A stretch of 64,000 nt of DNA from a virus (IMGVR_UViG_3300044614_000912:62001-126000), one strand, 5' to 3'; numbered from the stretch's first letter, positions 2,688 through 51,526 are shown. Notes: generated by a model from the sequence alone, not told the origin. Program-made: numbers and translations.

Positions 2688-2688
2688 T

Positions 2689-3432: not shown

Positions 3433-4298
3433 ATTTTGTAATCGGAAATTATGCCTCTGCAACTCAAACTGAGCCTATGTATATAGATGCTACCTTAAAA
3501 GCTATAGGGTGCAAGTCGGCAATATGGAATCCAACAAAAATTAGTGCCTACGATATATTTGATATGGTAAAGCCAGATTATCATCTAACGCATATAACCG
3601 CTATAATGACAGATGTTGTTTCATATATCAAAGAAAATGGTGGAGTAGAGCTTATTATCAATATATCTGGAGCAAATCAAGATGTAGTCACCAACACAGA
3701 AAGACTACTAAAAGAACGTAATGTTCCAATAGCATTTTTGTTTACCAACAGCGATGATTGTTCTATAGAATCAGAAGCACGGTTAATTAAAATAGGATTT
3801 GGTGCCGACTTATTTTTGAGTAAGGGGAATATTCCATACAACCTAGACTTGGGGCAAATTGTGTTCTCAAAAGAACACATCAAGAGCTTCGATTGCCCTT
3901 ACCATACAATAAGTTATGTTAAAAGCTTAGAAAATGATGTTGATATACTACTTCCTGTGAATCAGCTATCAAATATCTACCATAATTATGACAGATTAGT
4001 TTTCAGAAGCTTCGGAGCAATAATACCGCAATGCCTATATGATGCAATATATTATGGTAAACATGTTTCATATGATATAGATGACGAAGATACAAGAAAA
4101 GTAGTTTCAGAAAAAATCAAGAAAATATTCCGTACCGATATGGATATTTGTGACCCAAATAATGTAGATAGTGTAGAGCTTAGAAAACAATTGCTAGATA
4201 GACACACTTGCTTTCATAGAGTTAAATCTATCTTGTCGCAATTACCTTCTAGTGAATATTTAAGCAAGATAGATCAACTAATTGGAGAAGTAAAATGA
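3429..4298 (+). CDS. Possible GT-B-like protein of the sugar operon
   Basis: A 289-residue protein without a clear signature. I chose the ATG at 3429 because it forms an ATGA overlap with the previous stop, as elsewhere in the operon; an in-frame ATG further upstream at 3357 lies deep in that gene. The N-terminal half alternates strands and helices (MNFVIGNYASA, VELIINISGAN, VPIAFLFTNSDD). The C-terminal half has PQCLYDAIYYGKHVSYD, similar to the donor-side segment of GT-B enzymes where a gene product is described as having been made captive to 'the collection of sites around G-K-x-V'. I infer a glycosyltransferase-like or sugar-binding role from this and from context, not from a catalytic motif. 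Confidence 0.5.
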   Translation: MNFVIGNYASATQTEPMYIDATLKAIGCKSAIWNPTKISAYDIFDMVKPDYHLTHITAIMTDVVSYIKENGGVELIINISGANQDVVTNTERLLKERNVPIAFLFTNSDDCSIESEARLIKIGFGADLFLSKGNIPYNLDLGQIVFSKEHIKSFDCPYHTISYVKSLENDVDILLPVNQLSNIYHNYDRLVFRSFGAIIPQCLYDAIYYGKHVSYDIDDEDTRKVVSEKIKKIFRTDMDICDPNNVDSVELRKQLLDRHTCFHRVKSILSQLPSSEYLSKIDQLIGEVK

Positions 4299-5086
4299 GT
4301 ATCACAGTAGTATTGAATGGCTTTAAAAGACCTCATACACTAAAGGAACAATATGCTGCATTAAAACAGCAAACAGTTCAAGATTTTGATATTATGTTAT
4401 GGATCAATCTTGTTGATTCAACAAGTCTAGAATTTGATCAAAGTATTATAAATGATTGTAATTCTATTATATCGAATACCAATTTTGGGGTTTGGGGTAG
4501 ATTCACAGCGGCTTTAAATGCTAGAACCAAATATGTTTGCGTCATTGATGACGATACAATACCGGGCAAAAAATGGTTAGAAAATTGTTTAAATACTATA
4601 CAAACCCATCGTGGCGTTTTAAGCACTAGAGGGGTGGTAGCTAATCTTGGTCATGATCTTTCATATCCGGCTCCAGCAAGCTATACCGCTGTCGGATGGT
4701 GCAATCCTAATGAAAAAGCCGTGCGTGTGGACATGGGGTGCCACTCTTGGTTTTTTGAAAAAACTTGGATCAGAGCATTTTTCGCAGAAATGCCAGATAT
4801 TTTCCCAATGAGATATGGTGAAGATATGCATCTATCATATGCCGTTAAAAAACATTTTGATCTTAATACATATGTGCCTCCTCATCCAGCAAATGATTTA
4901 GATATGTGGGGTTCAATGCCAAAAACAGCTATGTCATACGGAACAGATAGTGCCGCAGTATCTTGGAGTGCAGAAGCTAATCAAGGTATGAACAAATATT
5001 GGAACTTTATTAGGCAGATGGGTTATCCTATTATTGCAGAAGAACAAGAAGAGGAAAAGAATGAAATTCACAATTCGGCCAAATAA
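4295..5086 (+). CDS. GT-A glycosyltransferase (GT2-like)
   Basis: A 263-residue GT-A fold glycosyltransferase. The first strand is SITVVLNGFKRPHTLKEQYAAL. The metal-binding acidic triplet is in YVCVIDDDTIPGKKWLE near residues 89-91. The acceptor-side acidic motif is RYGEDMHLSYAV. These three landmarks in this order are typical of family 2 enzymes. Catalysis would use a nucleotide-sugar with a divalent metal in the cytoplasm. It starts with ATGA overlapping the previous stop and has GGAG upstream. Its own end overlaps the next start at 5061. Acceptor unknown. Confidence 0.88.
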   Translation: MSITVVLNGFKRPHTLKEQYAALKQQTVQDFDIMLWINLVDSTSLEFDQSIINDCNSIISNTNFGVWGRFTAALNARTKYVCVIDDDTIPGKKWLENCLNTIQTHRGVLSTRGVVANLGHDLSYPAPASYTAVGWCNPNEKAVRVDMGCHSWFFEKTWIRAFFAEMPDIFPMRYGEDMHLSYAVKKHFDLNTYVPPHPANDLDMWGSMPKTAMSYGTDSAAVSWSAEANQGMNKYWNFIRQMGYPIIAEEQEEEKNEIHNSAK

Positions 5087-17888: not shown

Positions 17889-19562
17889 TTAGGTATTTAA
17901 CTCGTATGTCCAGTTTAAACTCAGACTATAGCTGCCACTTTTTGCATCCCAAGTTTCGCTTGGTGGACTAAGAAAATATTTTCTCACCCCGATCTCTTGT
18001 GCTGGGCTGTAAGCAGAAATAATAGAATTGATTTGACTCCTAAATGGTTCTACTAAACTTGGCTTTGATAAAATACCAAAATTACGAATTTGATTGACAT
18101 TTGGGTTTGGTATATTAGTTATAGACTGATAATATTTTCTATCCATAACTAAATCTATATTAACACTTCTTTGATATTCTGTTCTACCGCCGATATATTG
18201 TAAAACTGGACCGGTGGCTCTTCCTATCACTGGAATAACAGCAAAAACATCTCCGGGGTAAGTATCATTTACTGAAACACTTTCCGATAAAACACCACTA
18301 ACCAAGTTGGATGGTCTATCATTATACTCTATATTATATGTTATCTCCCCGGTAAATTCATTAGTTCCTATGCTAACAGACAATGGTTGATGATTAAGTG
18401 ATAAATTTGTTAAATTACTGGCTCTTCTAAAAATATGACAATTAGGACCAAACGCTCCATTATTTGTTATTTGATAATACTTTAGTGAAGCGTTTTGATA
18501 TGGAGTATTTCTTGGTGTAGTATCATTACCTCCAAAAATAGAACCGCTAGCTGGTGCAGAAGTTAATCCTTTAATGGTCCCATTTACAGATACGGTTGAA
18601 ACAGTATCAGTAATAGAGCTAGACAATGATAGGCTATAGTTTTCATATGCTGTTCCACTAGAAAGTAACCAAGTGTCATTTAGCGTGTATGATCCAGCCG
18701 TTTTATCAATAGTTTCTGTACGAAGATGATTATACCCACCAAATATATTATTGGCTAAGTTGATAGTACCACTTGCTATATGTCCACCAACACTATTGCT
18801 AGGATAATTAGCATGACCTAAATTACCACTAGAGCTAGCAAGAAATTTCATTACGAATTGCTTGGCTTGCGAAACGGGATGATTAGATTCATCACACCCA
18901 TCGCCGCCGCGTTTTCCAGTAGCACTCAAAGTTCGTGTAACACGATAATTTCTCATTGTATAATGAGGGGAAGATGATGGATCATAAGTATTTCCATTTC
19001 CTTCTTCTGGTTCTATTGACCAGCTTTCTGAAAAGTCTTCAACAAATCCACCAAACTGAGTTTTATAATCGGATAATGACATGCCGGAAGGTCCACCGTA
19101 ACTACCGGCACCAATAATACTGTCATTATTATCTAATAAGAATCCAGCTTCAAGTTCTATAGTATAATTACAAGTGTTTACCCAAACACCTTGATCAAAA
19201 TTCATTGATACAAGCTTTGGATAAAATGTAAATACTGGCTCATTACCATCTATCGATAGTACTTCAATTTTATTACACTTATCAGCAAATAGATTTCTTA
19301 ACGCCGCCTGCTTTTTAAGAATACTCCCCAATTTTTCTTCTACGGGAACGACTTCGCTAGGTGGTCTAGGATCATAAGCTGTTGCAAAAGCACCGCTCTT
19401 AAAGGGGGAACCTTCATCATCTAAAATAGTGCCTGTCAGAGTAATAGAATAAGAGCCACCACCAGTGCCACCTTTATTTTGTGAAGAGGTCCATGCCAAT
19501 GAAATAAGAGGGCATGGACGTATGATTTGAGCGGCTGTACCGCCTTGATAAACAATAATCAT
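17889..19562 (-). CDS. Beta-rich tail-tip protein (557 residues)
   Basis: A 557-residue protein of beta-sandwich character. Strand-like segments include GGGSYSITLTGTILDD, WSIEPEEGNG, YRVTRTLSATGK, EITYNIEYNDRPSN and SYSLSLNWTYEL at the C terminus. It has no catalytic motif and no signal peptide. Position directly after the 3,891-residue adhesin and before the hub suggests a tail-tip or distal-tail component. The start at 19562 follows the previous stop by one base. Confidence 0.55.
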   Translation of the reverse strand: MIIVYQGGTAAQIIRPCPLISLAWTSSQNKGGTGGGSYSITLTGTILDDEGSPFKSGAFATAYDPRPPSEVVPVEEKLGSILKKQAALRNLFADKCNKIEVLSIDGNEPVFTFYPKLVSMNFDQGVWVNTCNYTIELEAGFLLDNNDSIIGAGSYGGPSGMSLSDYKTQFGGFVEDFSESWSIEPEEGNGNTYDPSSSPHYTMRNYRVTRTLSATGKRGGDGCDESNHPVSQAKQFVMKFLASSSGNLGHANYPSNSVGGHIASGTINLANNIFGGYNHLRTETIDKTAGSYTLNDTWLLSSGTAYENYSLSLSSSITDTVSTVSVNGTIKGLTSAPASGSIFGGNDTTPRNTPYQNASLKYYQITNNGAFGPNCHIFRRASNLTNLSLNHQPLSVSIGTNEFTGEITYNIEYNDRPSNLVSGVLSESVSVNDTYPGDVFAVIPVIGRATGPVLQYIGGRTEYQRSVNIDLVMDRKYYQSITNIPNPNVNQIRNFGILSKPSLVEPFRSQINSIISAYSPAQEIGVRKYFLSPPSETWDAKSGSYSLSLNWTYELNT

Positions 19563-19563
19563 A

Positions 19564-22500
19564 TTATTTTCCTCTGATTCTTAGATTGAGATTATCAGAA
19601 TAACTTCCTACCCCACTAGCCATGAATAACATTAATCCAGACTCGGATACAATTATTGGGTCTGGAGTATGTACGTATAATAACATTCCAGATGGCTCGT
19701 TGGAAATTATTCCATCGACGGAGCTAGTGTACAGTCCTAAATCATTATACACATTAATTATGCTGTCTACACTAGTAAATAGATTGATATTCCCAGATGC
19801 ATTTTGTGCCCCATCGGTAAATAGGGGTAAATTACCGCTATTTGGAATTCCGAAGAAATAGGTGCCTTCTACAGATTTAATATATGGTCGATGTTCGATA
19901 AAGCCCTTTAATACTGGGTCTTGTCCAGATGCTTCTACGAATATTTCACCTTGATAATTACTATATATGATACCAGTTGCTTTATATTCCTTATTGGCGT
20001 CCAAATTATTCTTGAAAGACAAGAAGATTGCTGGATCGCCAGATGCATTTGTTTCTCCAAAGAATTTGGCGTCAATAAATGAATCTGGACTTTGTATGGC
20101 TGGAGCTTGACCTCTTAACATAATATCAGTGATAAATGCGGCACCAGCGCCGGTAACAAATTGATCGTAACTTAGAGGTAATCCAAGTTCATCATAAGCA
20201 TATTGTTCTCTATTTGATGTTTCGCTATGCGATCCACCAATAATTGTGTAATCAGCATCTGTTCGTTTTGATCTATCTAAAGCGACTGATTCTCCAAATC
20301 TGTCAGAAACGTCTGTGCCATATAATGTATACTCATGGTAAAATGGTGCGTTTTCTACTAGTTTTTCTACATAAACCCATTCTTGCTTCTTGGTGGGCCA
20401 ATCTACTATCTTGTTTTCAAATGTAAAAATAGCACCCATATTTATAATAGTATTAGCATTTACAATTGATGGATCGTAGGTATTTCTTATTCCAGAATTG
20501 CCAAGATCAATAACGGCCCTAGATGGAATACGGAACTCTGGATTGAAACATCTTCTAATAAAATCTCCAGAGCCATTAATGACATAGTTGCCATAATCAT
20601 GACCCGGAGCGCCGATAGCAATAATATCTCCGTCTATATCTATATCGCTACCAAATTTATCTCCCATAATTTCAATGCCAGAATTTGATCCAACATTGAT
20701 ACTATCTGGTCTTAACTTTTGAGTAAATGACCAAGGGGTAAATGTACCATGTAATCCACTGCCCTTATTGTTTCTTTCAAATAAATATGCCGCTCCAGCA
20801 CCACCATTATATGATAGTTCTATACCGGATGTTGATCCTCCATCTAATATATAATCCCAAGAAGATATTTCTTCTCTAGAATAAGCACTGAATGGTGAAC
20901 CGACAACAAGTTTATTTTTGTATAGTGCTACAGAATAACCGAATAGATCGCCGGGGAATCCAGATTGTGTGATGTCAAAGTCAAGGTAATCATAACCTTT
21001 TTCTTTCATTAAATCTGGCATACCGCCACCAATGCCAGCATCTCTATAAAGCTTACCGTCGATAACGCCACTGAACATAGCGGTTGCACCGTGAGATGTT
21101 TGTATGCCCTTAAAGCCGCTTATAATACCCTGTTTGATGTTTTCAATTTCTTCCGAAGTTGCACCATCGGGCCAAGGATTCTTCTTGGGGCGTTTAACAA
21201 ACTTGGGATCATATCTAGATTCTTTATTAGAAAATGATGATAATCCAACGGGCGATCCAGCAAAATCACCAAACAAGTGAGCCAAGCCGCTATTATTCAC
21301 AATACTTCTATACTTTTGTGGACTTCCTCTTTCTGGGGGCATAATCTTAGTCATAATAGTATACTGTCTTCCAGAATTTGTATCCGGCCAGTTAGTATAA
21401 GGATAGAGGCTTCTTAAGAATCTCACAGTTTCAGAACTCATGCGGAAGTTATCATCTCCCATGCATTGACCTTGAACAAGGCTAGAATCAGAAATTAAGG
21501 TAATTCTTGATCTTGCTACTCCTGTCATGAATTGTGAAAAATGTTCGATTTCTTGTGCTACTATTACAGGACCGTCTGCGATTTGCTTGTGACCGAGTGT
21601 ATCTTCACATCCATCAGCGCAGTAAACGGTATTGTCATTTAATATAGGCGATACAATAACCTCTGTTAAGGTTTGTGCTGGTTGAGGATCAGAAATACGA
21701 TAATATTCATTTCTATCAAACACTTGATAAAATTCTGGTATTCTTACTGTTTCTATTGGTACTAATACTCCAGAAATACCCAATAATCGCGTTGTCTTTG
21801 GTATATAGGAATTTGTTTTAACGGATAACCTTTCATTGTTATTCGCTATATAGAAATTGATTGTTGATGCTTCTCGTATAACCTGTGCATCAAATGAATA
21901 TGTTACTGGTTTATTTTCTATGCTATAGGTGGCTCTTCGTAAGTTTCCTAGTTTATCAACTGAATATCCAGCACCCAAATCATAACCAAATAATCCTTCT
22001 GTATCTGAATCTGATGGATTAGTAGTAATTCTCATGTTAACATTTTGAGTGGCGATAAATAGGTCTTCTGTTTCAGCCGGTGTTTCTGATATTGTGGTAA
22101 TGAAAATCTTATAACCAGAACCGGGAAGTGCAGGAAAAGAAACCTTAGTTACGCCAGATAATGACTTCCAATAACCATTTGTAATAAATTTCTTATCGTA
22201 GATTGGTCTATAGTCATAACATACTGGAACAGTATTTTCCACTAGTGCTATTGGCGTGAATCTACTTTGTGATACAACTTCAAAATATTCTATAGATGTA
22301 TTTACATTCCATCCTGTAGATACTGGGTGAATAGAATTAAACTCTAGAGATTCAGCGCCATCAACGACCGCATATTGATCAAGTACTGGTAGATATAATG
22401 GTTTAATTCTGCTACCAATCATATCAGATAACTGTTTAGCCAACAGAACCTGTGAGATATTATTGTCATATGTAATGATAAGCTTTTTATTTGGTCCGTT

Positions 22501-25500
22501 TAACCAAGATAGAAGATCGGTAAGTTCTTGTTGTGATGGTAAACCAGCGGGATTTGCTATCCAGCATACATCGTATTGATCTAACAGTGTGATTACATTC
22601 TCATCTACTGTGTTGCCAACGTTTTGAAATAAGTTAAACAAAAACGAATCTGGATATGCATCAATGAAACTAGTTCTCTTTGTCCAACCACCTAATTGTG
22701 CAATTAAAGATTCACCGTCTATCGTTCTACCAACTAGATTGGCGTAAAAATTAATATTTTGATCGCCAAAGCCAGAATATAGATTATTTTCTGATTCGGT
22801 GAAAACACCCGCTATGAATACCAACTTAGAAGATTTGTTAGCTAATGTTTCTTCAACGCAATAATATCCACGATTAGAAGCAATTTGTTTGTCTTCTAGA
22901 ATTTCGGATTGAGGAATCGCATTAGCCATTATCAATGATTGTCTATCATCAAAAATTTCTGGAGTGTAAAATAAACCATTAGAATTAATTTGACCTTCAT
23001 TAAGATTCAAATAGGATGATGTATTCTCGCCAGAATTCCAAATAAATGCTACGCTAGATGGTGATATAGGAGCATCAAAAATAGTTTGGAATCTAGACTC
23101 TTCTACAGTCCTATATACTGGATATACTCCAGACACGGCTGGGGATGCTGGTATATTTGTTATTTTTGTCACATAATCGCCAGCCACTATCAATGGAACT
23201 GGTTCTTGCTGTGGGAAATCAAACGGTCCAACTTGCGGAACACAGCACGGTGGAGAATATGTTCTAAACATGTAAGCCCAATTTACTGGATAATATACCC
23301 ATTGATCTTTACAGTTTTTGCATCTATCTGTCCACTCTGCTCTAAGATCGCCTAGATGCTTGAGTGGTAATTCGCATTTTTCATTAATAACTTCAAATGC
23401 TGACTCTCCAGAATCTATCAATTCTGATGGTAAAGCATCATTTTTAGATGTACATGGCATAAACTGGGCAAATTCTGGACTGTCTTTTAAGTACATGCGA
23501 ATATCAGCAACGCCATAAGCTTTTGTGGTGATCGGCTCAATATATGATGGGGTTGTGTTACGCGGTATATAAGATGGTAGAGCCATTGAGCATCCAGAAG
23601 ATAAAGCCTCATAAGAATTTCTGGCAGGATATAGTCTTAATCTAGACTTGACTCTATCCAAAATCTTATTTATAATGCTGTTGGATGTTTCATATATTCC
23701 ATTCTTTTCCCATATTGGATCGTTTCCAACCAGCACAAGATTTCTATCTCCTAATGCTAGCCAATTAAGAATGTTGTCTGTGACTTCATCGCTTAAAGCA
23801 TCTACTTCTGGAGTAATAATGAATGCTAAACCCGCCTCTTGTGGAATATTAACTTCTGTAAATTCTGTCTTTCTGAAGTTCATGTCGCTAAATGCTGAAG
23901 CAAGATAATTGAAATGACCAGAATCTTCTGGAAAATCCATACTTTCTTGTAGATTTCCAAATTTTCCGAATTCTACGACACTATTATGTGGGTAATATTT
24001 TCTAGCTTCAAACAATCTGACGGCACCGGCATTTGTACTATTTATCCAGCTTGGACTAATTAGATTAGTATTTAGATTTTCATCATTATTTGGATCATTA
24101 TATCCTTCATTTTTATACCAAACATTTCCATCTTCCCATTCATTAAAGCTATCAGTTGGGGCACCAAATGCAACAACTGTGCCATCTTCATTTACAGCAA
24201 CGCTATAACCCAATCTTGATGTAGGAGCAAAATGTTCTGGTATGAAACTCCAAGTACCAAAATTATAACTGATATTGCCATATCCATATGTGTAGATATT
24301 TTGATACTCTTGAATATTAAGATATTTTCTAGCTTCAAATTTTTCAGTTGAATCTAGTTTGGAATAAAGGATTTGATTTGCGTATTCTATTCCATAGGTA
24401 TTCGACCATATTGCATAATCGGTGATCATATTCCTATATCTAGCAAATAAACCTCCAGTAATGGCATTTTTGTATCCAAGCCAAGAAAATAGACCAGCAT
24501 AGAGTCTATCTTTTTCTTCTGGCTTGTACTCATAAACCTTACAAGCTTCTGAAATGTATGGCGATCCAATGGCGATGACTTCTGTATCATCACTAATTGC
24601 TACTGCATGTCCAAATCTGTCTGGAATACCATATGTTATATTTGGAGAACGTATTTCTTGAACAAGATTCCATGCGCCGCTTTCTTTTTCAAATACATAT
24701 ACTCTGCCGCCGCTTTCTGGAGGATAATTAAACTGTGATAGATTTTCATTAAAGAATTCCTGACCAACTCCAGATGTAAGATACTTGACTTGATTGTTGG
24801 ATACAAGTCTTCCTGTATCAAGAACTTCCCCAAGAATAGTTTGGGACATGAATACCCAATTTTCTGCCGCACCAAAATCAGATTGATATTCTACAAATGC
24901 TCCAGAGCTTTGAATTCCATAAAAATCTCTTAATCCACTAGCAAAGCTATAGTTTAGATAATAGTCTCTAAACATATTTTTAGCCTTACCCAACGCACCA
25001 CGCATAGAAGCACTATCATCAACATACAATCCTAATATTGGTGGAATATTATTATGAATTTTTGTCTCATCGTATGGGAAAGCCTCATTAAAGGCTTCTT
25101 TGATACCACTTAAAATTCTTTCATTTTGTTCTGGAGTTGGGATTCCTTTTACTCGTTCAATTTGTTTTTTGATGATAAAATTTGGTTTTGGTTCTGGAAA
25201 CTCTTTAACGGTGACATTAGTAGAATTCTTAGTTGGTTCACAAATAATTAGTTTAACGTCAAAACGAATTGGTGGTTCAGCAAAATATCTAAACAATAAG
25301 TCTTTGTTGTATATGGTGTCTAGTATGTCTTCGTAACTGTAATTTGGTCGTGGTTTTTTACCGGGGGCTGGTATAACTGGAGTAAATTCGTCAGTAAAGA
25401 TCATTACTCCGATTTGTACGCCGGATGTATATAAATCCTCAAAATCTCTTTGCCATTTGGCACTAGGACCACCAACTACAAGAACTTCTCGTTTATTTTC

Positions 25501-28500
25501 TCCAAATGATTTATGAGTATCTGAAGCAGCTATATCAAGACTATGGCCGAACTGTCTGCCTTCTTGACCAACATTCCATTTTCTTTGAATCACAGTGGCT
25601 GGAAGTTCGATATTATCAATCTTGTTGGTTTCAATTCTATCATAGTAATCTTTTCTTAAACCAGATGGTAGATATAATCTTTCTTCCAGATACCAAGGCG
25701 ATTTTTGCGTTCCATCGGGCCAACTATATCCACTTGGTCTATTATCTCTTCTAAAGATATAAACAGCACCGGCTTCATCTAATGTACTAGTTACAAGGTT
25801 GCCACTAGAATCATATTCTGTATATGTAATATCATGACCGGGAGCGCCTATACAAGCTAGATTATTTTTGACTGCAACAGATTTACCAAATTTTTCATTG
25901 ATTTGCCTTAAAGTAGAGCCTTGGTTACTATTTGGTGAATCAGCAGTAAGTTTTCTATTAGTATAATTTGTATAACCATTATTTACTACTAGATCGTTAA
26001 CAACTATTTCATCTGTTCCATATTCGCTTTCGATATATTCTGTTGGTAATTCTATAGTATTTTTACTTCCTGTCTTACCAATTACATTAACAAAGTATGG
26101 AGCCTGTGGTATAAGATTTGTGTACTTTCTAAGCCCGTAGAAGTGTCCACTATATCCAATTTCTGTCTTAAATCCACTTGTTTCCAAATTAGTGTATGTG
26201 TTCTTCGCTCTGAATATTCCTCCGTCAACGCAATCATTTGGTGTTGACCATATATCTTCGTGTAGAACAACTGATTCTTCTGTGCAGGAGCCAACATTTT
26301 GACAATTACCATAGCATAATAGTTCAACACCGCGTATTTCATCGTTTGCTTCTAGATAAGCATATCTATTGTCATCAACAGCAATATTCTTGCCGGGATA
26401 ATCACTATTCCAAGTAATTGTGTATTGTTGTGAGCCGGTGGCGCTGAATGCTGGATAATTAACCAAGAATAGATTTACAGATGAATCTATATTTGTTACA
26501 TCGAAATCTTTGCCACTAATCCATAGATTCATTCTTTCGCCGCCATCTACCAACGAAACTGGTACTGGTGGAGAATTTATGAACATTGGCATAGCTTCTC
26601 TATAAATTACAGATACCCTCAATGGAGAAGCTTGCATATGCATAGTCATAGAAGAACTATTGCTCTCTATGAGTCCTACGCTCTTAGTAAAGAGTTGAAT
26701 AGAACCGCTAGCAGATTGATCTTCTATTCTATTTGTAATTGTAATCGGGAGAATTTGTTCATCGAATTTGTTATATCTACCAGACACATATAAGTTAGGG
26801 CCAAGATAGTAATCCTCACCGGCGGTGGCACCAAATAATTGAGAAGTAGAACTATTAACAGAGCCTTTATTAAAAGTGAAGAGTCTAACATTTTGTGGGG
26901 TAGCATAATACGCTGAACCAATGAACATATTAACATTATCAGAGCTAACATCTGGCAGTGTGCCGCTGGTATAAAGCTGGAAGTCATCAGCAATAGTTCC
27001 GCGACCATAAACATATAAGTTAACGTCTTCTAGCCACTTCTTTTCTCCGTTTGAGAATAGATTTAGTGAAGTATTAACATTTTCTTCTGATATCAGCGCA
27101 TTCTCTAGTCTTACATTGGCTGAGTGTAATTTAATTCTTGATTCAAAAGGCGAACCAGATGGATACACTAAATCATATTGTAAGTACATCTGATTAATAT
27201 CAGTGGAATAGTACTTAGTATCAAATTCTGTAATGCTTCTTTCTACATCAAAATTTGCCCAAGGCTCAGATGTGTCTATCAAATCTTGGTAAGTAAATTT
27301 GCTAGAAATCTTCTGCCAGCATCCAGATGGTTCTAGATAATGAATTGCTCTATTAATCAAACCCCAATTTCTCTTACTTGGAGCATAAGATGGGTCTTGA
27401 CTTGGGGTATACAAACTTACTATAAGTTTAGGACCGATATCTCCATTAGGCCAAATGATGTTATTAAATGTTTCGTGTTCTAAAATTGTGTCAACTACCA
27501 ATGCATCTTCTACAAAATTATATCCCCTCGGCAATGTCTTAGAAATTCTTGGATGTGCAGAGTAAAAATTGCCACTCGATGAAACGTCTGATAAGTATAG
27601 TCTTAAAAAGTCATTCTCTATTTGCGTGTGATATGCTAATCCAGAAGCCAATACATTAGAAGGTAATGGTAGGTTTGTTATTTGTGAATATCCAGAACCA
27701 TGATGATTAATACTATGTAGTATATAATCTCTTCCAACTCTTTGAGTTAAGAAATCAAAGTCTGGTGAGAACTGACAAACTTTAAAATCACCTAAATGCC
27801 AACTATCTGTATCTTCTGATACCAATGTATTAAGAATATTTCTATCATCATGCCATGATTCATTAGATGACCAATACTTATTTCTTTGTGATGCAAAAAA
27901 TGATGGTACATCCGACGCCTTATAGAAACTATCTCTAAATCCTGTCTTGCTAGTAGATATAGCCCCACTAGACTCTGGATACGAAATGCTAGAGAATGGA
28001 GTAAATCTTAAATTAGTCCTGTTATAAAATAAATTGCTTTGCTGAACTATAGCTTTATTATGTGTTGATATTCCAATTTCACTAACAAACATATTTAATC
28101 CGACACCAGATGCTGGACAATGACCAATCAATAAATCATTATTACTTGGATTAAAAGATACTATTCTTAGATTACCAATACTTCCGAAAGGAGCAATAAA
28201 GCCTCTATTTAATGTCCAAGCACCTTGAGAAATTTCATTATCGGTATACAAAAACATGGAATTTGCCACGCCTAAAGAAGCATATGGTTCTTTGAATGTA
28301 ACCATAGCTGACATGGGGAATTTGTATGCTGAATAATGTGCGGAATCTCTAGCCTTTAACATTACTCCAGAAATATAAGCATAAGCACACAAATGACCAT
28401 TTTCATATCCAAGAACAAAACCTTGCTGTGAACCAGCATCCCACTGAGACATAACAACGCCAGAATTGATTAAATTAAAGTTTGATCCACTTACTGGTAA

Positions 28501-31239
28501 GTCCGGTGAGAATCTAATATAAAAAGCAAATCCTTTAGAAGTATCAACTTGACCAAAATTAATATAGCCATTTACTCCAGAAGTTCTTATGGCACTGTCA
28601 AAGTTATCGCCAATTTTTCCATATAATGGATCGTCTACAAAATCAACCGATCCATTGGATAAAGAAGTCCAATCTGTTGTCTTGTATGGTGAAGTAAAGC
28701 CCGGTAGTTGATTAGCAAATAAACTATTGCTATCGAATCTCCATCCGATATTCTTAACTAAACTCTTTACATAATCACCGGTAAATGTACCGCTTAAACC
28801 GCCTAAGTTAGCTCCTAGTGGTACTGATAAGATATTATTTCCACTATTGCGGGTGAAATTATAAAATCCTTCTAGGAATGGGTACTCTATAGTTGGATTA
28901 AAATAACCATAATCAAATTGTGCAGCATTGAAGGGGCCGTTTGTAATAGAGCCATTAACACCAACCCACCGCTTAGAGTAATTTGTTTTGATCGAACTTG
29001 GAGAAGTAAATGCGTGTGGTAAATTTTCTAGTCTGGATATTGGGCCATATTCGTCGCTTGTATTGAATATACCATCTACAGACTGTCTTGTAGTCGGATA
29101 TATTTTAACTTTTCTTCGCGTTAGCTCTTTTGAACCTTGAGCGAATGTATGCAACATTAAACCATCAGATGGCTTATACTTCACCACCAGTTGGACGGTC
29201 GAAATAGTTGCTCCACTAGGAATAGGATATAAATCAAGAAAGAGATTTTCAATATATGAACTGTTTCTGTAATCGGTTGATTTGCCTAATAAAACTGGGT
29301 CTTCATAAATTTTAAGTGGAATATTATACTCTTTGAAGCTAGTCGAATTGATCAATGGAGTTCTAGTTAATTCATAATGATCTTTAGCTGGATTTAATGT
29401 GATATCTCTAATATAGACTTGATCTTTTTCAGAGATAGATATGCTTGATATTCCCAAATCATTTATATGCTTAAAGCCAGAAATTTGTGGAGTAAAACCG
29501 TCTTGATTAGCAATATCTACTATTAGGTAGTTGGACTCTGATGCTATAAAATTTGCATCTTCATCTCCAAGATAAATTATTTCTGCATCGTTTTGTAAGA
29601 ACGCACCTATCTTGGGAGTTCTATTTAATAATTTATCGTCATTGTATCCAACAACGTCTAAAGCGTAATCTGCTGACCCTACTGCTTTTTTAGCAATAAC
29701 TTTGAGATAGACTTCATCAATAATAAAGAAATTGTCGTTTTCTTTAAGAGAAACTACTTCCGATGTATTATAATTTTTGCCTTGGAACGCACCCTTAAAT
29801 GGTCCGTTCGATTCTGCCCAAACAGATTTAGGTGGGAGGTTGGTAAATCTAAGTGTTAATCTACCACTATCTATGTGCGGCGTACTAGAGAGTAGTTTAA
29901 TATAGTGAAATGGATAATCATCTTGAAGCCTTGATGCTGTTAAAGCTGGTTCTGTGAGACTATTATCTGTATTACCATATGAATCTGGATTAGATTCCCA
30001 TAAACTATAAGCTTCTGGATAAATATCAACATCAACATCACTAGCAATCATATCTATTGGAACAATATACTTAGTTAATCTTTGTCCAATTGGGGCAACA
30101 TCAGTATAGAAGGGTATATAATTATCTCTTAAAATTCCAACGCCGCTAGAAAATACAACGTCGTATCCTCCACTATTACATATTTCGATAGCAGATATTC
30201 TAATACTATTTTCTGGAGTAAGAGCAAAGCTTAAATTCTTGCTAGCATTTGCTTGTTCGCAAGATTCTTCGTACCCGACGTTAAATCCATCAGAAAATGG
30301 ATCATAAAAGCACTGAGTATCAAAATCCAAATTTAATAAATAGCCACTAGGATATCCCATTAGTGGATAACCAGACTGCCAAGTGTGTAGCAATAAGTTG
30401 TTTGTCTCTGGTTCAGAGATATATGTAGTAAAATTTATATCATCTAATTGATAGTCTGCATCTCCTCGTACAAAAATATCCTTGTACTTGATAACGGTAT
30501 TACCGCTGGGGTCAAGCAGTTTTATATTATGAATTCTATACTGTGGCGGTATATCAGATGACTTTGTGTATGTTGGCGCGGCGGCGCGAAGAAAAACAAA
30601 ACTATTTTCAGCATTATCAATGGGCCTAGTAACTTCACATGTATATCTAAAATCACCATCACTCATCGTTGAAGATGGTTGAATATATGAAAATTTTTCG
30701 TCTGCTATGATCTTACTATTTTTGCCATTCTTAGTATAGTTACCAATAAATACGCCTTCATCAATATTAGAAAATAGATTGGTTGTGCTGTTTAACTTAT
30801 CAACAAAATAACTATTGTTTAGTGATGTAACAATGTCTTTGATTGGATATAATTTTTGGGTTGCTTGAAAATTATCAAAAGCATTTAATGTGCCAAAATT
30901 ACCAGCAAACTTATCAGTTTTGACATCATTTATAAGACTAGTGGCGGATACTCTAGAGCGTAAATTTCCATTTAATTGTAGAGTTGCTCTAATATCTCCT
31001 ATGCCAGAATCTTGTAAGGCTTGTAAACCTATACTTAACTGAGCCTTGCTTCTGATAGCGCCTTCGCCGGATAATATGGCCGGTGTGATAGCTCTTAATG
31101 AATTACTGGCAACAATTTTACCAACTCCACCAATTCTCATGGTTGGTGAATGATTAATAGTAGCTCTTGCGACAAAGTTACCGGCGGAACCGATTCTACT
31201 AGATTGATTTGATGTACAAGAAAAACAAACTTCACTCAT
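19564..31239 (-). CDS. Giant FG-GAP repeat adhesin / tail-tip protein with LamG-like, VWA-like and GATase-like segments
   Basis: A 3,891-residue virion protein, 18% of the window. A LamG-like sugar-binding segment lies near residues 885-1,010 (GYINFGQVDTSKGFAFYIRF, then QQGFVLGYENGHLCAYAY). Seven FG-GAP-type repeats (FGxSVAxx...GAPG) are at about 1,785, 1,897, 2,209, 2,347, 3,437, 3,530 and 3,647. Between repeats 2 and 3, near residue 2,074, ILGLYVDDSASM carries a DxSxS motif like the VWA/MIDAS site. Between repeats 4 and 5 are three segments like the GATase/IFT52 fold (LAFIITPEVDALS; YDVCWIANPAGLPS; SRITLISDSSLVQG). The C terminus has short repeats around xLFxSG (NINLFTSV, LMLFMASG). The likely role is host surface binding at the tail tip. 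It directly follows the tape measure gene. Confidence 0.75.
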   Translation of the reverse strand: MSEVCFSCTSNQSSRIGSAGNFVARATINHSPTMRIGGVGKIVASNSLRAITPAILSGEGAIRSKAQLSIGLQALQDSGIGDIRATLQLNGNLRSRVSATSLINDVKTDKFAGNFGTLNAFDNFQATQKLYPIKDIVTSLNNSYFVDKLNSTTNLFSNIDEGVFIGNYTKNGKNSKIIADEKFSYIQPSSTMSDGDFRYTCEVTRPIDNAENSFVFLRAAAPTYTKSSDIPPQYRIHNIKLLDPSGNTVIKYKDIFVRGDADYQLDDINFTTYISEPETNNLLLHTWQSGYPLMGYPSGYLLNLDFDTQCFYDPFSDGFNVGYEESCEQANASKNLSFALTPENSIRISAIEICNSGGYDVVFSSGVGILRDNYIPFYTDVAPIGQRLTKYIVPIDMIASDVDVDIYPEAYSLWESNPDSYGNTDNSLTEPALTASRLQDDYPFHYIKLLSSTPHIDSGRLTLRFTNLPPKSVWAESNGPFKGAFQGKNYNTSEVVSLKENDNFFIIDEVYLKVIAKKAVGSADYALDVVGYNDDKLLNRTPKIGAFLQNDAEIIYLGDEDANFIASESNYLIVDIANQDGFTPQISGFKHINDLGISSISISEKDQVYIRDITLNPAKDHYELTRTPLINSTSFKEYNIPLKIYEDPVLLGKSTDYRNSSYIENLFLDLYPIPSGATISTVQLVVKYKPSDGLMLHTFAQGSKELTRRKVKIYPTTRQSVDGIFNTSDEYGPISRLENLPHAFTSPSSIKTNYSKRWVGVNGSITNGPFNAAQFDYGYFNPTIEYPFLEGFYNFTRNSGNNILSVPLGANLGGLSGTFTGDYVKSLVKNIGWRFDSNSLFANQLPGFTSPYKTTDWTSLSNGSVDFVDDPLYGKIGDNFDSAIRTSGVNGYINFGQVDTSKGFAFYIRFSPDLPVSGSNFNLINSGVVMSQWDAGSQQGFVLGYENGHLCAYAYISGVMLKARDSAHYSAYKFPMSAMVTFKEPYASLGVANSMFLYTDNEISQGAWTLNRGFIAPFGSIGNLRIVSFNPSNNDLLIGHCPASGVGLNMFVSEIGISTHNKAIVQQSNLFYNRTNLRFTPFSSISYPESSGAISTSKTGFRDSFYKASDVPSFFASQRNKYWSSNESWHDDRNILNTLVSEDTDSWHLGDFKVCQFSPDFDFLTQRVGRDYILHSINHHGSGYSQITNLPLPSNVLASGLAYHTQIENDFLRLYLSDVSSSGNFYSAHPRISKTLPRGYNFVEDALVVDTILEHETFNNIIWPNGDIGPKLIVSLYTPSQDPSYAPSKRNWGLINRAIHYLEPSGCWQKISSKFTYQDLIDTSEPWANFDVERSITEFDTKYYSTDINQMYLQYDLVYPSGSPFESRIKLHSANVRLENALISEENVNTSLNLFSNGEKKWLEDVNLYVYGRGTIADDFQLYTSGTLPDVSSDNVNMFIGSAYYATPQNVRLFTFNKGSVNSSTSQLFGATAGEDYYLGPNLYVSGRYNKFDEQILPITITNRIEDQSASGSIQLFTKSVGLIESNSSSMTMHMQASPLRVSVIYREAMPMFINSPPVPVSLVDGGERMNLWISGKDFDVTNIDSSVNLFLVNYPAFSATGSQQYTITWNSDYPGKNIAVDDNRYAYLEANDEIRGVELLCYGNCQNVGSCTEESVVLHEDIWSTPNDCVDGGIFRAKNTYTNLETSGFKTEIGYSGHFYGLRKYTNLIPQAPYFVNVIGKTGSKNTIELPTEYIESEYGTDEIVVNDLVVNNGYTNYTNRKLTADSPNSNQGSTLRQINEKFGKSVAVKNNLACIGAPGHDITYTEYDSSGNLVTSTLDEAGAVYIFRRDNRPSGYSWPDGTQKSPWYLEERLYLPSGLRKDYYDRIETNKIDNIELPATVIQRKWNVGQEGRQFGHSLDIAASDTHKSFGENKREVLVVGGPSAKWQRDFEDLYTSGVQIGVMIFTDEFTPVIPAPGKKPRPNYSYEDILDTIYNKDLLFRYFAEPPIRFDVKLIICEPTKNSTNVTVKEFPEPKPNFIIKKQIERVKGIPTPEQNERILSGIKEAFNEAFPYDETKIHNNIPPILGLYVDDSASMRGALGKAKNMFRDYYLNYSFASGLRDFYGIQSSGAFVEYQSDFGAAENWVFMSQTILGEVLDTGRLVSNNQVKYLTSGVGQEFFNENLSQFNYPPESGGRVYVFEKESGAWNLVQEIRSPNITYGIPDRFGHAVAISDDTEVIAIGSPYISEACKVYEYKPEEKDRLYAGLFSWLGYKNAITGGLFARYRNMITDYAIWSNTYGIEYANQILYSKLDSTEKFEARKYLNIQEYQNIYTYGYGNISYNFGTWSFIPEHFAPTSRLGYSVAVNEDGTVVAFGAPTDSFNEWEDGNVWYKNEGYNDPNNDENLNTNLISPSWINSTNAGAVRLFEARKYYPHNSVVEFGKFGNLQESMDFPEDSGHFNYLASAFSDMNFRKTEFTEVNIPQEAGLAFIITPEVDALSDEVTDNILNWLALGDRNLVLVGNDPIWEKNGIYETSNSIINKILDRVKSRLRLYPARNSYEALSSGCSMALPSYIPRNTTPSYIEPITTKAYGVADIRMYLKDSPEFAQFMPCTSKNDALPSELIDSGESAFEVINEKCELPLKHLGDLRAEWTDRCKNCKDQWVYYPVNWAYMFRTYSPPCCVPQVGPFDFPQQEPVPLIVAGDYVTKITNIPASPAVSGVYPVYRTVEESRFQTIFDAPISPSSVAFIWNSGENTSSYLNLNEGQINSNGLFYTPEIFDDRQSLIMANAIPQSEILEDKQIASNRGYYCVEETLANKSSKLVFIAGVFTESENNLYSGFGDQNINFYANLVGRTIDGESLIAQLGGWTKRTSFIDAYPDSFLFNLFQNVGNTVDENVITLLDQYDVCWIANPAGLPSQQELTDLLSWLNGPNKKLIITYDNNISQVLLAKQLSDMIGSRIKPLYLPVLDQYAVVDGAESLEFNSIHPVSTGWNVNTSIEYFEVVSQSRFTPIALVENTVPVCYDYRPIYDKKFITNGYWKSLSGVTKVSFPALPGSGYKIFITTISETPAETEDLFIATQNVNMRITTNPSDSDTEGLFGYDLGAGYSVDKLGNLRRATYSIENKPVTYSFDAQVIREASTINFYIANNNERLSVKTNSYIPKTTRLLGISGVLVPIETVRIPEFYQVFDRNEYYRISDPQPAQTLTEVIVSPILNDNTVYCADGCEDTLGHKQIADGPVIVAQEIEHFSQFMTGVARSRITLISDSSLVQGQCMGDDNFRMSSETVRFLRSLYPYTNWPDTNSGRQYTIMTKIMPPERGSPQKYRSIVNNSGLAHLFGDFAGSPVGLSSFSNKESRYDPKFVKRPKKNPWPDGATSEEIENIKQGIISGFKGIQTSHGATAMFSGVIDGKLYRDAGIGGGMPDLMKEKGYDYLDFDITQSGFPGDLFGYSVALYKNKLVVGSPFSAYSREEISSWDYILDGGSTSGIELSYNGGAGAAYLFERNNKGSGLHGTFTPWSFTQKLRPDSINVGSNSGIEIMGDKFGSDIDIDGDIIAIGAPGHDYGNYVINGSGDFIRRCFNPEFRIPSRAVIDLGNSGIRNTYDPSIVNANTIINMGAIFTFENKIVDWPTKKQEWVYVEKLVENAPFYHEYTLYGTDVSDRFGESVALDRSKRTDADYTIIGGSHSETSNREQYAYDELGLPLSYDQFVTGAGAAFITDIMLRGQAPAIQSPDSFIDAKFFGETNASGDPAIFLSFKNNLDANKEYKATGIIYSNYQGEIFVEASGQDPVLKGFIEHRPYIKSVEGTYFFGIPNSGNLPLFTDGAQNASGNINLFTSVDSIINVYNDLGLYTSSVDGIISNEPSGMLLYVHTPDPIIVSESGLMLFMASGVGSYSDNLNLRIRGK

Positions 31240-31241
31240 TA

Positions 31242-34200
31242 TTAGACCTTTGGCATAGTTGATGAATTTTCTATGAGTTTTCCACCAGAGCCGACGCTGG
31301 TATTTTTGATCTTATCCGAGACAATTTTTGCAATTTCATTTCTTGCTTCCTGCGTTAAACCGGCAAGCATACCGCTATTTCCAGAAAAATTTACATTTAC
31401 ATTTGTACTATCTAATGTAATCTTAAATTTTGTATCTTGAAGAGATTTAATAGTATCCGACATTTGAGAAGTAAATGTCGTTAATGCCTTGGTAAGCATA
31501 GAGATAACGTCTGTACCAAGAATATTCTGGACTATTCCGTTTAATAATCCTCCTCCAGCTAAATATTGTACTTTTCCGCCCCTAGCAAAGTTTTGAACAC
31601 CGGCTGATGCTCCCGCTGAACCGCTTAGACCATTATTCATAGCTTGTAATAGTTGTAGATTGTTACCTCTATTTACAGCTTCTCGTCTTACAACGAACTC
31701 TCCGGGTGTTAACATTGCGGGAACGGTATCTGTTCCACGGGGAACGAAGATACCCCTACTTGCATACACGGTTCCGCCTTTTCTGAACATTGTAGGCTCA
31801 CGGCCTCTACCGGCAGCTTCGGCATCTCTAGATGCTCTTTCATCTTCTGCCGACTGTTTAACCTCTGGAGCCATTCCCCTATCCCTAGTATTACTAACGG
31901 CTTCTTCGGCCTTCTTTTGAGCGGCCTGTAACTGTATATTTGCGGCATCTAGTTGTGACTGAGCAGCTTGAACTTGTAAATCGGCGGTTGGACCCATAGT
32001 GCCAGCTAATGCACGTATATCGCTCTTTACTGCTTCTTCTTCTGGAGTGGTTCCTGCTAGCATTTGTGCTGCGGCTGGATTCTGAACACCTCTGGCCGAT
32101 AATGCGGCTGTTGCAGCTTTCTCACCCAAACCACCCGGACCAGCAATACGTTGACCGTATATTTCTTGAACGCCAGCTTCTTTTTGTCTTTCAATATCAG
32201 AATAAGCACCAGCCAATGCTGTGGCACCAAATGCATTCATAAGGTCTTGATTACCAGTTGCTATTGCGGCTGTAGCTCCAACGGCGGCTTGTTGATCAAA
32301 GAACTTCTCTATATCGCCATTTATTAGCGATTCCATAGACTGTTTCTCAAGCTTATTTTTCTCTTCTATAGTCTTGAGTTCTTCTTCTTTGGCTTTAATC
32401 AAATCTCTAGTGGTTTGTATTTGACTCTTAGCTGCTTCGTTGAGTCTTCTTTCCTCTTCTTCCAATTGTAATCCAGCTTCACCAGCCAATTTAGCTTGAG
32501 CTTCTTTATCTCCACTTGCTGCCGCAGCCCTAATGCCCGCTATTTCTTGCTGCCTTGCTCCAATTTGCTGTGTTCTTTGTGTGATTTCAGCAGCACTTCC
32601 TGTCTTGAGATTATCAACACCTTGTATTCCGGTTGCTTGAACATTAGCTTGTGCTACAATATTAGCTCGTCTTTCTGCTGGCGTGACAGCTTTGCCGCCG
32701 TATTTTGCTTCAATATCTCTTGCTTCCATCTGCACATTTAAAGCCTCTTGCTGTGCAGACATTAAATTGCGTTCTGCTTCTATTCTATTTTTAGTAAGCT
32801 GATTAAGTTGTTCTTGGATTTTTATTGCATCATTAAGTGGGCCGTTAACTTGCTCAAGAACTTTCTTGCCAAAATCACCCATAACCTCAGAGAAAACTCC
32901 AAAGTTACCTTCTCCAAGAGCGTTGAGTTGATCTTCTGATAATGTATCGGCCTGTGCCTGTAAACGCTTGATAGTATCGTCATCATATTTTCTATTACCA
33001 GCAGCATCTGTTTGAGCAGCAAGATTTTTACCAAGAATATCCTTAAAAGCTTTTCTTCTATCTTCTGCGCTACCGGAACTCAATCTTCCCTTAAGATCGC
33101 TCTTTGTTTGTTCAAAAATAGTAGCGGAATTCTTTTGAACTTCGTTAATAGATTTGAGATTACCCTTAAACTTATCAATTTGTTTATCATTTGCTCCAAA
33201 TCTTCTAAGGGTTGCTTCAGCATCGCCAAGGGCAGCGTCAAAATCAGCATCGCTAATGCCTTGAGCAGCAGATGTTACGCTGGCTTCAAGTGTAGCTAAA
33301 GATTGTTGTAATGGTATATTGCCAGCCTGTTGAGCAGCAATATAGTTAGTTATACCAAGTGCTGCTGCGGCAGAAGCACCTTGAACGTCTTGCATACCAA
33401 GGTCCATAGCTTCAAAAGCTTTTCTAGTTCTTTCTGCCTCCTTTTGTAAATTCTCAAAAGATTTATCAAGCTCTCTGGCTTGTTCTTCTAATACGGCGGC
33501 TTGTTCTCTAAATGCATTAGCTTCGTCTTTATTACCAGCAGTATCAGCTTCTGATGCTTTTATTCTCAATTGACTCATTCGACTTCTCATAGCACCCGGA
33601 GAATTAGCACCTAATTGAGCATCAATTTGCTCACGGGTCATGCCTTGAGCGATACCACGCTTCATGCTTTCATTGACAACCGGCCTAGAAATATCAAAAG
33701 CCTTTCTTTCAGCTTCCGCGTTTTGTTTTATTAATCCGGCATTCTCTTTATCGATTCTTTCATTTCTTTGTTTGCCAGATTCTAAGCCAAAATATCCAGC
33801 TAAACCTAGTGTTGCAACTCTAGCTGTACCACGCAAGAAGCCTCCAACAGCCCCGCTCTTATTGCCCTTGTTAGATTCAACAGCTTTTTCATTGGCAGTT
33901 TGCATCGCCTGTCTTGAAGCTTGTACATTAGAAATTTTAGCAAGAGCTTCACCAGCACTAATCGTTCCATTTTGTAAATCTTCTAAAGCAGAAGAAGCGT
34001 CTTTTTGTCCTTGTTCAAAAGCCTTTTGAGTTTTAACCGCTTGAGCTTGTGCAGAGGCTAAATCTTTGATACTATCATAAGTGTTTCCACCAAAGGCTTG
34101 ACCAAGACCAATGAATGCTCTATTTACATAGTCAGTTCCAAAAATTGCTTTTTCTATAGATGGCAGAAATTTTGTTGCTAATGCTACGCCTGCGCCAGCA

Positions 34201-37200
34201 ATACCACCTATTAATGTTCCTACACCGGGAACAAGGCTACCAATAGCGGCACCCGCTAAAATAGCTGATGAACCAAAAGAATCAATACTTTCTTGAGCGG
34301 CGACATTGACAGAATTTTCTGATGCTTTGCCTATGTTACCTTCTTGTATAGCTTTATTAGCTTGGTTTTGATAGTCAAAATAAGAATTAACAGCAGAAGA
34401 TGCTGCCATTAAACCAACTTCTACCGCTAAAAGTGGTCCAGCAAAAGCATTTAAGCCTTTTGTAATTGTACCAACAGCTTTACCAAAAGATGCTACTCCA
34501 ACATTGCTTATCGATCCGGCCATAGCTTTTTGGCCCATTGAACCGCCCATACTTGCAAATGGATTTGCTCCAACTTTGCTAGGAAGACCTACACCTTTCA
34601 TTCCAGCATTAAATCCCTTAGATAAATCTCCAAATGCTGTTCCGGCTCTTCCAGATGTTTTTGCGACAAATTTTTGGAACCCACTAGCACCGCTCATGGA
34701 TGACATAGTTGCTCCGCGACCCATAGAACCACCCATATTAACAAATGGATTGTTTCCTATGGCTCCAGATTTTACAGCTGAAAATAGTCCAGCTTGATTT
34801 TTCATTCCTCCACTAAAAGCTGAACCAGCAACATTTGCAGCACTAGATAAACTAGGTAAAGCCTTGCCGACACCACCAGCTATTTTACCACCAATACCAC
34901 CTAACCTACCACCAATGTTGCCAATAATCTTGCCAACGCCAGAAAATTGTCCAGAAAGATTGCCTAAAGTTTGAGTTAAACTACTAGCACCACTCAAAAA
35001 CTGTGTCATGGTTTGCACATTCAAAGCAACACCAAAAGCTTCTAAAGCGAAGCCAACAGTTGTCAATGTTGACACAACGCCAAGCAATCCATGAGACATT
35101 CTTACAATAGCCCCAGAATTTTCATCTAGTGCTGGTAACATGCTTTGCATTAATCCAACCGTCATGGAAGCAGCGAACATTTTGTTCGCAGAAACGCTTT
35201 CCATAATACTACGTTTTTGTTGGCCTTGAGCATTAACTAAATCTTCTGCTTGCTGAGTTAATGCATCTAGTGGTATAAAATTACCACCATTACCGCTGCC
35301 ACTAACAGGAGATGGTCTAACGCCAGTAGCGGCTGTGCCAGTAGCGAATCTTTGAACAATACCACCATTAGCGTATTTACCAACTTTATTCATACGGTTT
35401 AAATTACCGTATCCAATACTTTGGGCGGATGCTCTGTTTACAACAAACTCGCCGGGGGTTAATAATGCTGGAACAGTATCGGTTCCAACTCCACCTCCCG
35501 CAGCAAATCTGGCAACTCTTGTTGATCTTGGACCCTTGGCTCTTAATGCATCCATTGCGGGCTGTTTACTACCGCCCTGAGTAAATATCATATTTGCAAG
35601 TGGGATACCAAATAATCTACTAAGATACTCTGCAACTCCCGGCACCCTTTGAGATTTACTAATGATGGATAATCTACCGGGCTGTAATTGTCCAGATTTT
35701 ATAGCTGTTTGTAATTCTTTGCCAAACACGGTAAGCGGAGCAGATGTAACGTCTTTTAATCTAGCCTTTGGATCACGGAAATATTTATTTAGTGCGGCTG
35801 ATTGTTGACCCGACGTTTTAGCCATACCATAAGCTTTGTCACCAATTGTTCTTTTTAGAGTTCTATCGATATCAATAGCACCACCGCCAGCTTTAATTAA
35901 TGCTGCAATAGCAGAACTTGGGCGAGGCATCATTGTTCCGCTAGCATTTATGATATCATCAATAAGTGGAGCTTTAGCCATACCGCCAGCAGCAAATTTC
36001 TGTATCAGTCCACCAAACTGTTTTCTAACAAGTTTGATACCCTCTAGTCTATTTATATTGATATCGTTTTGAATTTTCTTAGATAACCCATCCGATCCAG
36101 TTAATAGACTCTTTGATCTTTTGACTTCTGCCTTTAAGAGTTTTGAAATTCTAGCGTCTTGACCGAACATTGATTGTAAATTTTGAACATCGTCTGGCAA
36201 GGAACCATATGGTAAGTCAAAATTGGCTCTGCCGCCAGCGGTTTTGGCACCGGTGATACTACTTATAATACCTTCAAATAAATAACCCTCTAAAGATGCT
36301 CTAAGATTTGTATCAGACACCATGTTCTGTAAAGCATTACCAATTAATGATGGATTGCCAATAAATGCTGGATCGGCTGATAGTAGATTTTTAGATTGAA
36401 TTTCTGATACTGCATAATTTAATGATTTTTGAAAACCTCTTGTTGTTGCTTTAGAAACTATGCCGCTAAATTGTTTTGATTTTTTAACATCTTTAAGACC
36501 GGGGTAAAATAATGGATAGGATGCACCTTCTAATATTGCTGGCATTGGTGCCATTTTATCTTTTGTGCTTCCCGGCACAGCAGCGTCTGCACCACCATAT
36601 GTCTTTAGAATACTTTTGTATAATTTACTGTTGGGGGATAGATTGAATTGAGTGTTACCAGCTTTATAAAAGTCATCCGTACTCTTTGGGGGGTCTAAAA
36701 CAAAGGCTCCAATTTGATTTGGAACTGGTCTAAATACAGGGGTTTGACCAAATTTGGAAACACCCTTTCTCATGCGAGAAGTTTCAATTGTTTCGCTGGT
36801 TTTACCAGCGTTTTTAATGGTGCCAGAGACTAAAGATTGTGGTTCTTTTTTGTTACCAGCAGCAGTTTGCGCTCTTGCTGCTGCAATTTTTTGTGCAGTA
36901 GTCATAGGACCGCCCTCTTTAAAGCGGTTCTCATTCATAGCAGCGAGGTTTCCTGCACCTAACCTGTTCACGCTACTTTTACGTATAACAAATTCTCCCG
37001 GCTGTAACATGGCTGGAACAGTATCACTGTTGCCAGTACCGGGAACCATTCCGCCTCTAGCAAATTTATGAACTTTACCGCCTTTATTAAAGGTTCTTCC
37101 AGAGGCCAATCCTCCTCCAACTCCACCTAAGAATCCACCAATACCTCTAGTCAATTTAATAGCAGCCATAGCTCCTAATAATGGAATGAGTGGCTTGATA

Positions 37201-45162: not shown

Positions 45163-45176
45163 GTAATGAGTTTACT

Positions 45177-46136: not shown

Positions 46137-46148
46137 AAATCTCCTCCA

Positions 46149-46649: not shown

Positions 46650-46699
46650 AGTTTTTCCTTAGTTTAAAATATAGCTATTTATGCATATCTCTAAGTAGG

Positions 46700-46710
46700 T
46701 ATACACTTTT
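46700..46710 (-). promoter_or_regulatory. Late promoter candidate AAAAGTGTATA
   Basis: GTGTATA on the minus strand, 50 bases before the ATG at 46649, in a 72-base gap. The core matches four other gaps, though the flanking run is AAAA rather than TTTC. Confidence 0.5.
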
Positions 46711-46721
46711 TAGGGTTTTGT

Positions 46722-47777: not shown

Positions 47778-47790
47778 AGAAATTTATAGA

Positions 47791-50360: not shown

Positions 50361-50362
50361 AA

Positions 50363-51514: not shown

Positions 51515-51526
51515 TGTTAACCCCCA

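Follow-up and report, generated by a model that had tools for sequence, protein, structure and literature searches.

Seven FG-GAP_2-type repeats and two conserved inserts in a large tail protein of uncultured phages, an outline most likely convergent with integrin alpha

Propellers of the integrin type are recognized by seven repeats, each with a Gly-(13-20)-Pro-(2-15)-Gly Cage motif, and by calcium loops of the form DxDxDG that join strand 1 to strand 2, found in three or four blades in metazoans and once per repeat in bacterial examples (PMC3192720); the A (I) domain of integrins is located between blades II and III (PMC12383024). A similar organization had been suggested by a first-pass annotation for a 3,891-residue virus protein, described as holding seven FG-GAP-like repeats and, between the second and the third, possibly a metal-dependent VWA-like domain, either reached independently or acquired by transfer. 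This protein is encoded in the 64,000-nucleotide stretch IMGVR_UViG_3300044614_000912:62001-126000 (hereafter ‘the window’), which belongs to a virus record of 132,557 bases. From the comparison of its homologues, the integrin parallel is correct in outline and wrong in detail: the arrangement is real and conserved, and the variant is new. The reading we favour, with a probability of roughly 0.55, is that of a core tail protein whose C-terminal part is a seven-repeat FG-GAP_2 propeller platform with two conserved inserted modules.

Other FG-GAP proteins can be set beside it. Bacterial FG-GAP_2 (PF14312) propellers share with the phage protein the repeat family, the F-G..G-x-P..G-x-V-Y pattern and the number of seven repeats, as does a compact protein of a related contig (L294, on G013), whose open reading frame (ORF) of approximately 1,100 codons ends in seven tandem FG-GAP_2 repeats; the repeats of the large phage protein are, however, spread by large inserts over approximately 1,940 residues. 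The compact protein adjoins Thr-rich fibre-like genes. Large proteins with FG-GAP repeats are also encoded by other viruses, namely algal and giant viruses (BFVD) and, as gp107 and gp108, the Sinorhizobium phage Phosso, the latter two proteins differing by their many tandem repeats and by the lack of any match to the alpha/beta insert described below. Phosso is a cultured 469-kb phage in which gp107 and gp108 (3,162 and 3,692 residues, annotated as hypothetical) contain dozens of FG-GAP-like repeats; as these repeats are the only feature in common, it was rejected as a cultured relative. The few open-access papers retrieved for FG-GAP combined with bacteriophage and tail terms do not, by title and abstract, deal with phage tails, so that such an arrangement seems to have been little described.

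The seven repeats are well supported by the homologues. FG (or LG) pairs are present at residues 1784, 1897, 2209, 2343, 3433, 3529 and 3648, within a few residues of the positions given in the first-pass annotation, and their Gly is conserved in 66/67, 67/67, 69/69, 69/69, 65/65, 65/65 and 64/65 homologues for repeats 1-7, respectively. In most repeats, the Pro of strand 2 and the Gly opening strand 3 are also nearly invariant. The match to Pfam FG-GAP_2 reaches an E-value of 1.8e-17 (63.7 bits versus a curated cut-off of 23) and is retrieved in both protein halves of 12/12 homologues, whereas the integrin-type FG-GAP family (PF01839) is matched in one of these 12 at an E-value of 0.3 in one half and in none in the other. 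A repeat hidden Markov model (HMM), trained on repeats 1, 3, 4, 5 and 6 only, retrieved these five with E-values of 6e-9 to 8e-11; it gave only weak matches to repeats 2 and 7 and none to a potential eighth in the 3,891-residue protein. Two AlphaFold models were built from 56-sequence alignments, for residues 1690-2790 and 2700-3891 (mean predicted local distance difference test, pLDDT, of 76 and 74, respectively), and nearly all repeats are four-stranded units in them. Because the repeats number seven, they probably close into one seven-bladed propeller; that seven is a natural number for FG-GAP_2 is supported by the compact protein of the related contig. Among structural matches, the blade 1-4 model resembles FG-GAP repeat proteins of viruses (E-values down to 1.7e-7), and the model holding blades 5-7 has an integrin alpha5 headpiece as its top PDB match (E-value 5e-4).

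The first of the two inserts interrupts blade 2. GGRVYVFEKE and AWNLVQEI, located after it, agree with strands 3 and 4 of this blade in both sequence pattern and predicted strands, and the insert is therefore inside blade 2, in the loop between strands 2 and 3. Thus, the motif reported between repeats 2 and 3 does lie between the FG anchors of these repeats, but the proposed placement between blades 2 and 3, as for an I domain, is not the one found. The distance from P1925 to G2177 is 241-303 residues in 67/67 homologues holding both ends. Most of the domain is modelled at pLDDT >80 as an alpha/beta fold consisting, in order, of a strand (1939-1948), a helix, a strand (1991-2001), a short strand (2022-2026), a helix, a strand (2068-2073), a helix, a strand (2114-2118) and a helix. 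The DxSxS motif announced at residue 2074 is indeed present directly after the fourth predicted strand (2068-2073), in the form [DE]x[ST]xS in 67/68 homologues and as strict DxSxS in 45. Its final Ser is found in 67/68, and the other two positions are occupied solely by D/E and S/T (E for D in 15/68, T for S in 15/68). Two other D.S.S sites exist in the protein, both in its N-terminal part. At the end of the first strand (‘IFTD’), D1950 is kept as Asp in 54 homologues and replaced by Asn in 10. From the [DE]x[ST]xS motif, the domain may possibly bind a divalent cation at a putative metal-ion-dependent adhesion site (MIDAS).

In canonical VWA domains, the strand bearing DxSxS comes first and the sheet order is 3-2-1-4-5-6. 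In the insert, the DxSxS strand comes only after two beta-alpha units, which makes any VWA domain a non-canonical one, and just one short strand and a helix are found beyond the next helix. Pfam VWA families (PF00092, PF13519 and others) gave no match to the insert of 40 homologues at an E-value setting of 10, VWA_2 (PF13519) is absent from nine related phage records, and a PDB profile search with the insert returned nothing. When the insert was aligned by hhalign with VWA domains from bacterial genomes, it scored 16 (E-value 0.12), versus mostly 8-13 and at most 15.6 for reversed and column-shuffled control profiles, and rotating the profile gave no rise. The canonical VWA reading was consequently rejected, on element order and on the absence of profile matches. 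What stands of the metal-dependent VWA insert first proposed is a conserved MIDAS-like motif at the end of a strand in a predicted alpha/beta domain, features also seen in VWA domains (PF00092, PF13519); what does not is membership of a VWA family, together with the Thr and Asp expected after DxSxS, since the conserved ‘TD’ (D1950) stands before the motif and no conserved Thr is seen in the homologue alignment beyond the strand following it.

Two interpretations of this domain can be opposed. It may be an unrelated Rossmann-like domain in which [DE]x[ST]xS forms a turn of the structure or has some function other than metal binding, to which we give an even chance: no sequence match to VWA was found and the motif tolerates both E in place of D and T in place of S, yet a nearly constant final Ser, with the two remaining positions restricted to D/E and S/T, is the pattern expected of metal ligands. 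Alternatively, and with distinctly lower probability, it could be a circularly permuted VWA domain rotated to begin at strand 4, such that 1939-1950, with the TD motif, would be strand 4, 1991-2001 strand 5, 2022-2026 strand 6, 2068-2073 with DxSxS strand 1, and 2114-2118 strand 2 or 3. The predicted order of elements would agree with this rotation, the D/N preference at D1950 resembles the VWA Asp and the DxSxS-like motif is almost invariant; on the other hand, 0/40 homologues have a Pfam VWA match, the hhalign score is near that of the controls and gains nothing from rotation, and no conserved Thr is seen after the following strand.

The second insert, between blades 4 and 5, comprises a DUF4350-like alpha/beta domain, more alpha/beta elements and a beta-rich stretch, and in homologues 1,006-1,229 residues separate the third strand of blade 4 from the blade 5 FG. 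Residues 2455-2640, just after blade 4, are similar in sequence to DUF4350 (PF14258) in 25/40 homologues (best E-value 1.1e-4), but the phage domain is embedded in a propeller and the window copy is below the curated cut-off (17.4 versus 30.4 bits); a PDB profile search with this domain found nothing. Long strands are modelled at residues ~3000-3184, and the PDB matches of the second AlphaFold model include carbohydrate-binding modules and other beta-sandwiches.

Table 1. Location in the window of the large tail protein, its parts and its immediate neighbours (all on the minus strand).
Feature	Residues	Window position	Strand	Basis
Large tail protein ORF, 3,891 amino acids		19564..31239	minus	translation; homologues with same gene order in related contigs
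N-terminal module	~1-1650	26290..31239	minus	separate gene in some relatives (e.g. L131, L134)
FG-GAP repeat/blade 1 (FGKSVAV..IGAP..GAVYIF..WYLEERL)	~1783-1870	25629..25893	minus	Pfam, alignment, model, HMM
Blade 2, strands 1-2 (FGHSLDIA..VLVVGGP)	~1896-1925	25464..25554	minus	alignment, model
Alpha/beta domain in strand 2-3 loop of blade 2	~1926-2176	24712..25464	minus	alignment, model
Strand with conserved acidic end (SGVQIGVMIFTD)	1939-1950	25390..25425	minus	alignment, model
MIDAS-like motif DDSAS	2074-2078	25006..25020	minus	alignment
Blade 2, strands 3-4 (GGRVYVFEKESGAWNLVQEIRS)	2177-2198	24646..24711	minus	alignment, model
FG-GAP repeat/blade 3, strands 3 and 4 separated by a helical insert	~2208-2319	24283..24618	minus	alignment, model
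FG-GAP repeat/blade 4	~2342-2423	23971..24216	minus	alignment, model
Second insert, between blades 4 and 5	~2429-3426	20962..23955	minus	models, Pfam, alignment
FG-GAP repeat/blade 5	~3432-3513	20701..20946	minus	Pfam, alignment, model
FG-GAP repeat/blade 6	~3528-3628	20356..20658	minus	Pfam, alignment, model
FG-GAP repeat/blade 7, degenerate, window copy without Pro	~3646-3728	20056..20304	minus	alignment, model, HMM
Tail tape-measure protein, 2,397 amino acids, upstream neighbour		31242..38435	minus	phrog_28 and other tape-measure families
557-amino-acid neighbour, downstream, conserved in relatives		17889..19562	minus	homologue comparison

Convergence is the most likely origin of the resemblance to integrin alpha. 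Seven FG-GAP repeats, mostly four-stranded, are present as in an integrin alpha chain carrying an A (I) domain, with a DxSxS-like domain inserted near blade 2; these are the elements of the proposed integrin-alpha-like topology that hold, whereas calcium loops and Cage motifs are mostly absent and an extra insert lies between blades 4 and 5. Indeed, the median Pro-Gly spacing is 16, 252, 32, 35, 55 and 18 residues in repeats 1, 2, 4, 5, 6 and 7, respectively, repeat 3 has no conserved Gly, and many copies of repeat 7 have no Pro. DxDxDG loops are found in 0 of 65-69 homologues in repeats 1, 2, 3, 5 and 7, in 3/65 in repeat 6 and in 21/69 in repeat 4. Convergence is argued from these two departures, from the FG-GAP_2 type of the repeats and from the position of the insert in the strand 2-3 loop, a loop located on the same propeller face as the one joining blades 2 and 3. 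The phage protein further differs from integrin alpha by its insert being unrecognizable as VWA, by a second insert of approximately 1,000 residues with no integrin counterpart, and by its phage tail setting, with no beta partner known.

Descent by transfer, one of the two origins first envisaged, would mean that a seven-bladed integrin propeller was acquired along with a genuine VWA (I) domain joining its second and third blades. It would account for the seven repeats and for the presence of DxSxS after the FG anchor of repeat 2 and before that of repeat 3. It would also fit two integrin matches in the PDB: a headpiece chain of rat alpha5beta1 integrin ranks first for the second model (E-value 5e-4), a match that we take to reflect blades 5-7, and integrin alpha-6 ranks first by sequence for the blade 1-4 profile (E-value 0.0044). 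Transfer is nevertheless unlikely because most calcium loops and the Cage spacing are absent, and the whole scenario of descent appears very improbable given that the repeats are of FG-GAP_2 and not integrin type, that the insert is inside blade 2 with no detectable VWA domain, and that a related phage already has a protein with seven FG-GAP_2 repeats.

As to the role of the protein, its C-terminal 2,200 residues would form the seven-repeat FG-GAP_2-type propeller, acting as a rigid platform that would hold both inserted modules at the tail tip, in contact with the host surface, and the blade-2 domain might there employ a bound divalent cation. The location at the tail tip is probable from gene order, the sequence tape measure, large protein, gene of ~490-690 amino acids being kept in most relatives; host contact or adhesion is likewise inferred. 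The large protein is ~31-50% identical to its relatives, a range comparable to that of the 557-residue neighbour and the tape measure, while capsid proteins from the same or similar contigs are 85-92% identical. As its divergence resembles that of its tail neighbours, it can be regarded as a core tail component, and relative to them it is unlike a fast-changing receptor binder. Nevertheless, the MIDAS-like motif of one insert and the possible carbohydrate-module-like sandwich of the other make it plausible that the protein has a conserved binding function at the tip.

Several observations weigh against the platform reading. Blades 1-4 and 5-7 of a propeller spanning ~1,940 residues were modelled separately, Foldseek searches of the PDB with the blade 1-4 model gave weak, mixed matches and nothing significant, and the putative metal site is deduced from a sequence motif alone. 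Furthermore, a divergence about equal to that of the tail neighbours is no less compatible with a structural part than with a receptor binder. The protein could be a purely structural tail-tip hub, with the adhesins encoded at 44035-54802 by variable, fibre-like genes rich in Thr; this we consider a serious but less probable alternative. Besides the divergence shared with the tape measure and the 557-residue neighbour, it has in its favour the similar length and architecture of most relatives and the tail-fibre and tail-spike families matching window genes at 45177-46136 and 51527-54802, and genes around 44035-54802 are at least equally good receptor-binder candidates; the conserved motif on the blade-2 domain and the beta-sandwich with its carbohydrate-binding module matches suggest binding instead. 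That the protein would be an independently evolved integrin-like head, with a tail-tip propeller displaying a permuted metal-dependent VWA domain (MIDAS) for cation-dependent host binding, seems unlikely to us. Should the platform reading be right, a very common family of uncultured phages would have an integrin-alpha-like propeller-plus-insert layout as a core tail part, reached independently, and the protein would be a concrete candidate for host contact in these phages, cation dependence being a testable claim.

The phage family carrying this protein is widespread, uncultured, tailed and water-living. Recognizable families include those of terminase, of the major head protein and of the tape measure. 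The tape-measure gene is separated from the large ORF by a gap of two bases, and 3′ of the latter come the 557-residue gene and two further large genes. Searches by tblastn with the 3,891-residue protein and most of its neighbours retrieved no relative among named phages, and a scan of bacterial genomes found none. Peptide patterns taken from the window alone retrieved one close relative, and relatives were reached first through the major capsid protein, afterwards by profile searches. The capsid protein has approximately 600 relatives in IMG/VR; among the large contigs holding these, 10 contain homologues of the region (36-57% identity), and profile searches yielded 74 and 78 loci.

In relatives, the large protein is usually 3,600-4,600 amino acids long, with a similar architecture in most. 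In several, L131 and L134 among them, it is split into two genes cut near residue 1650, from which the border between N- and C-terminal modules was placed there; no known domain was found in the N-terminal module. Conversely, the large ORF of three loci (L163, L164 and L167) reaches 5,200-5,400 amino acids, the extra length being N-terminal.

Elsewhere in the window, genes at 46722-51514 contain long Thr-rich tracts and Cys-rich segments, and the gene at 46722-47777 shows a GSFAR..DIDIL stretch that is nucleotidyltransferase-like in look. Lastly, a cluster at 570-5086 on the plus strand comprises a glycosyltransferase-like gene (phrog_2170) and similar-looking neighbours.

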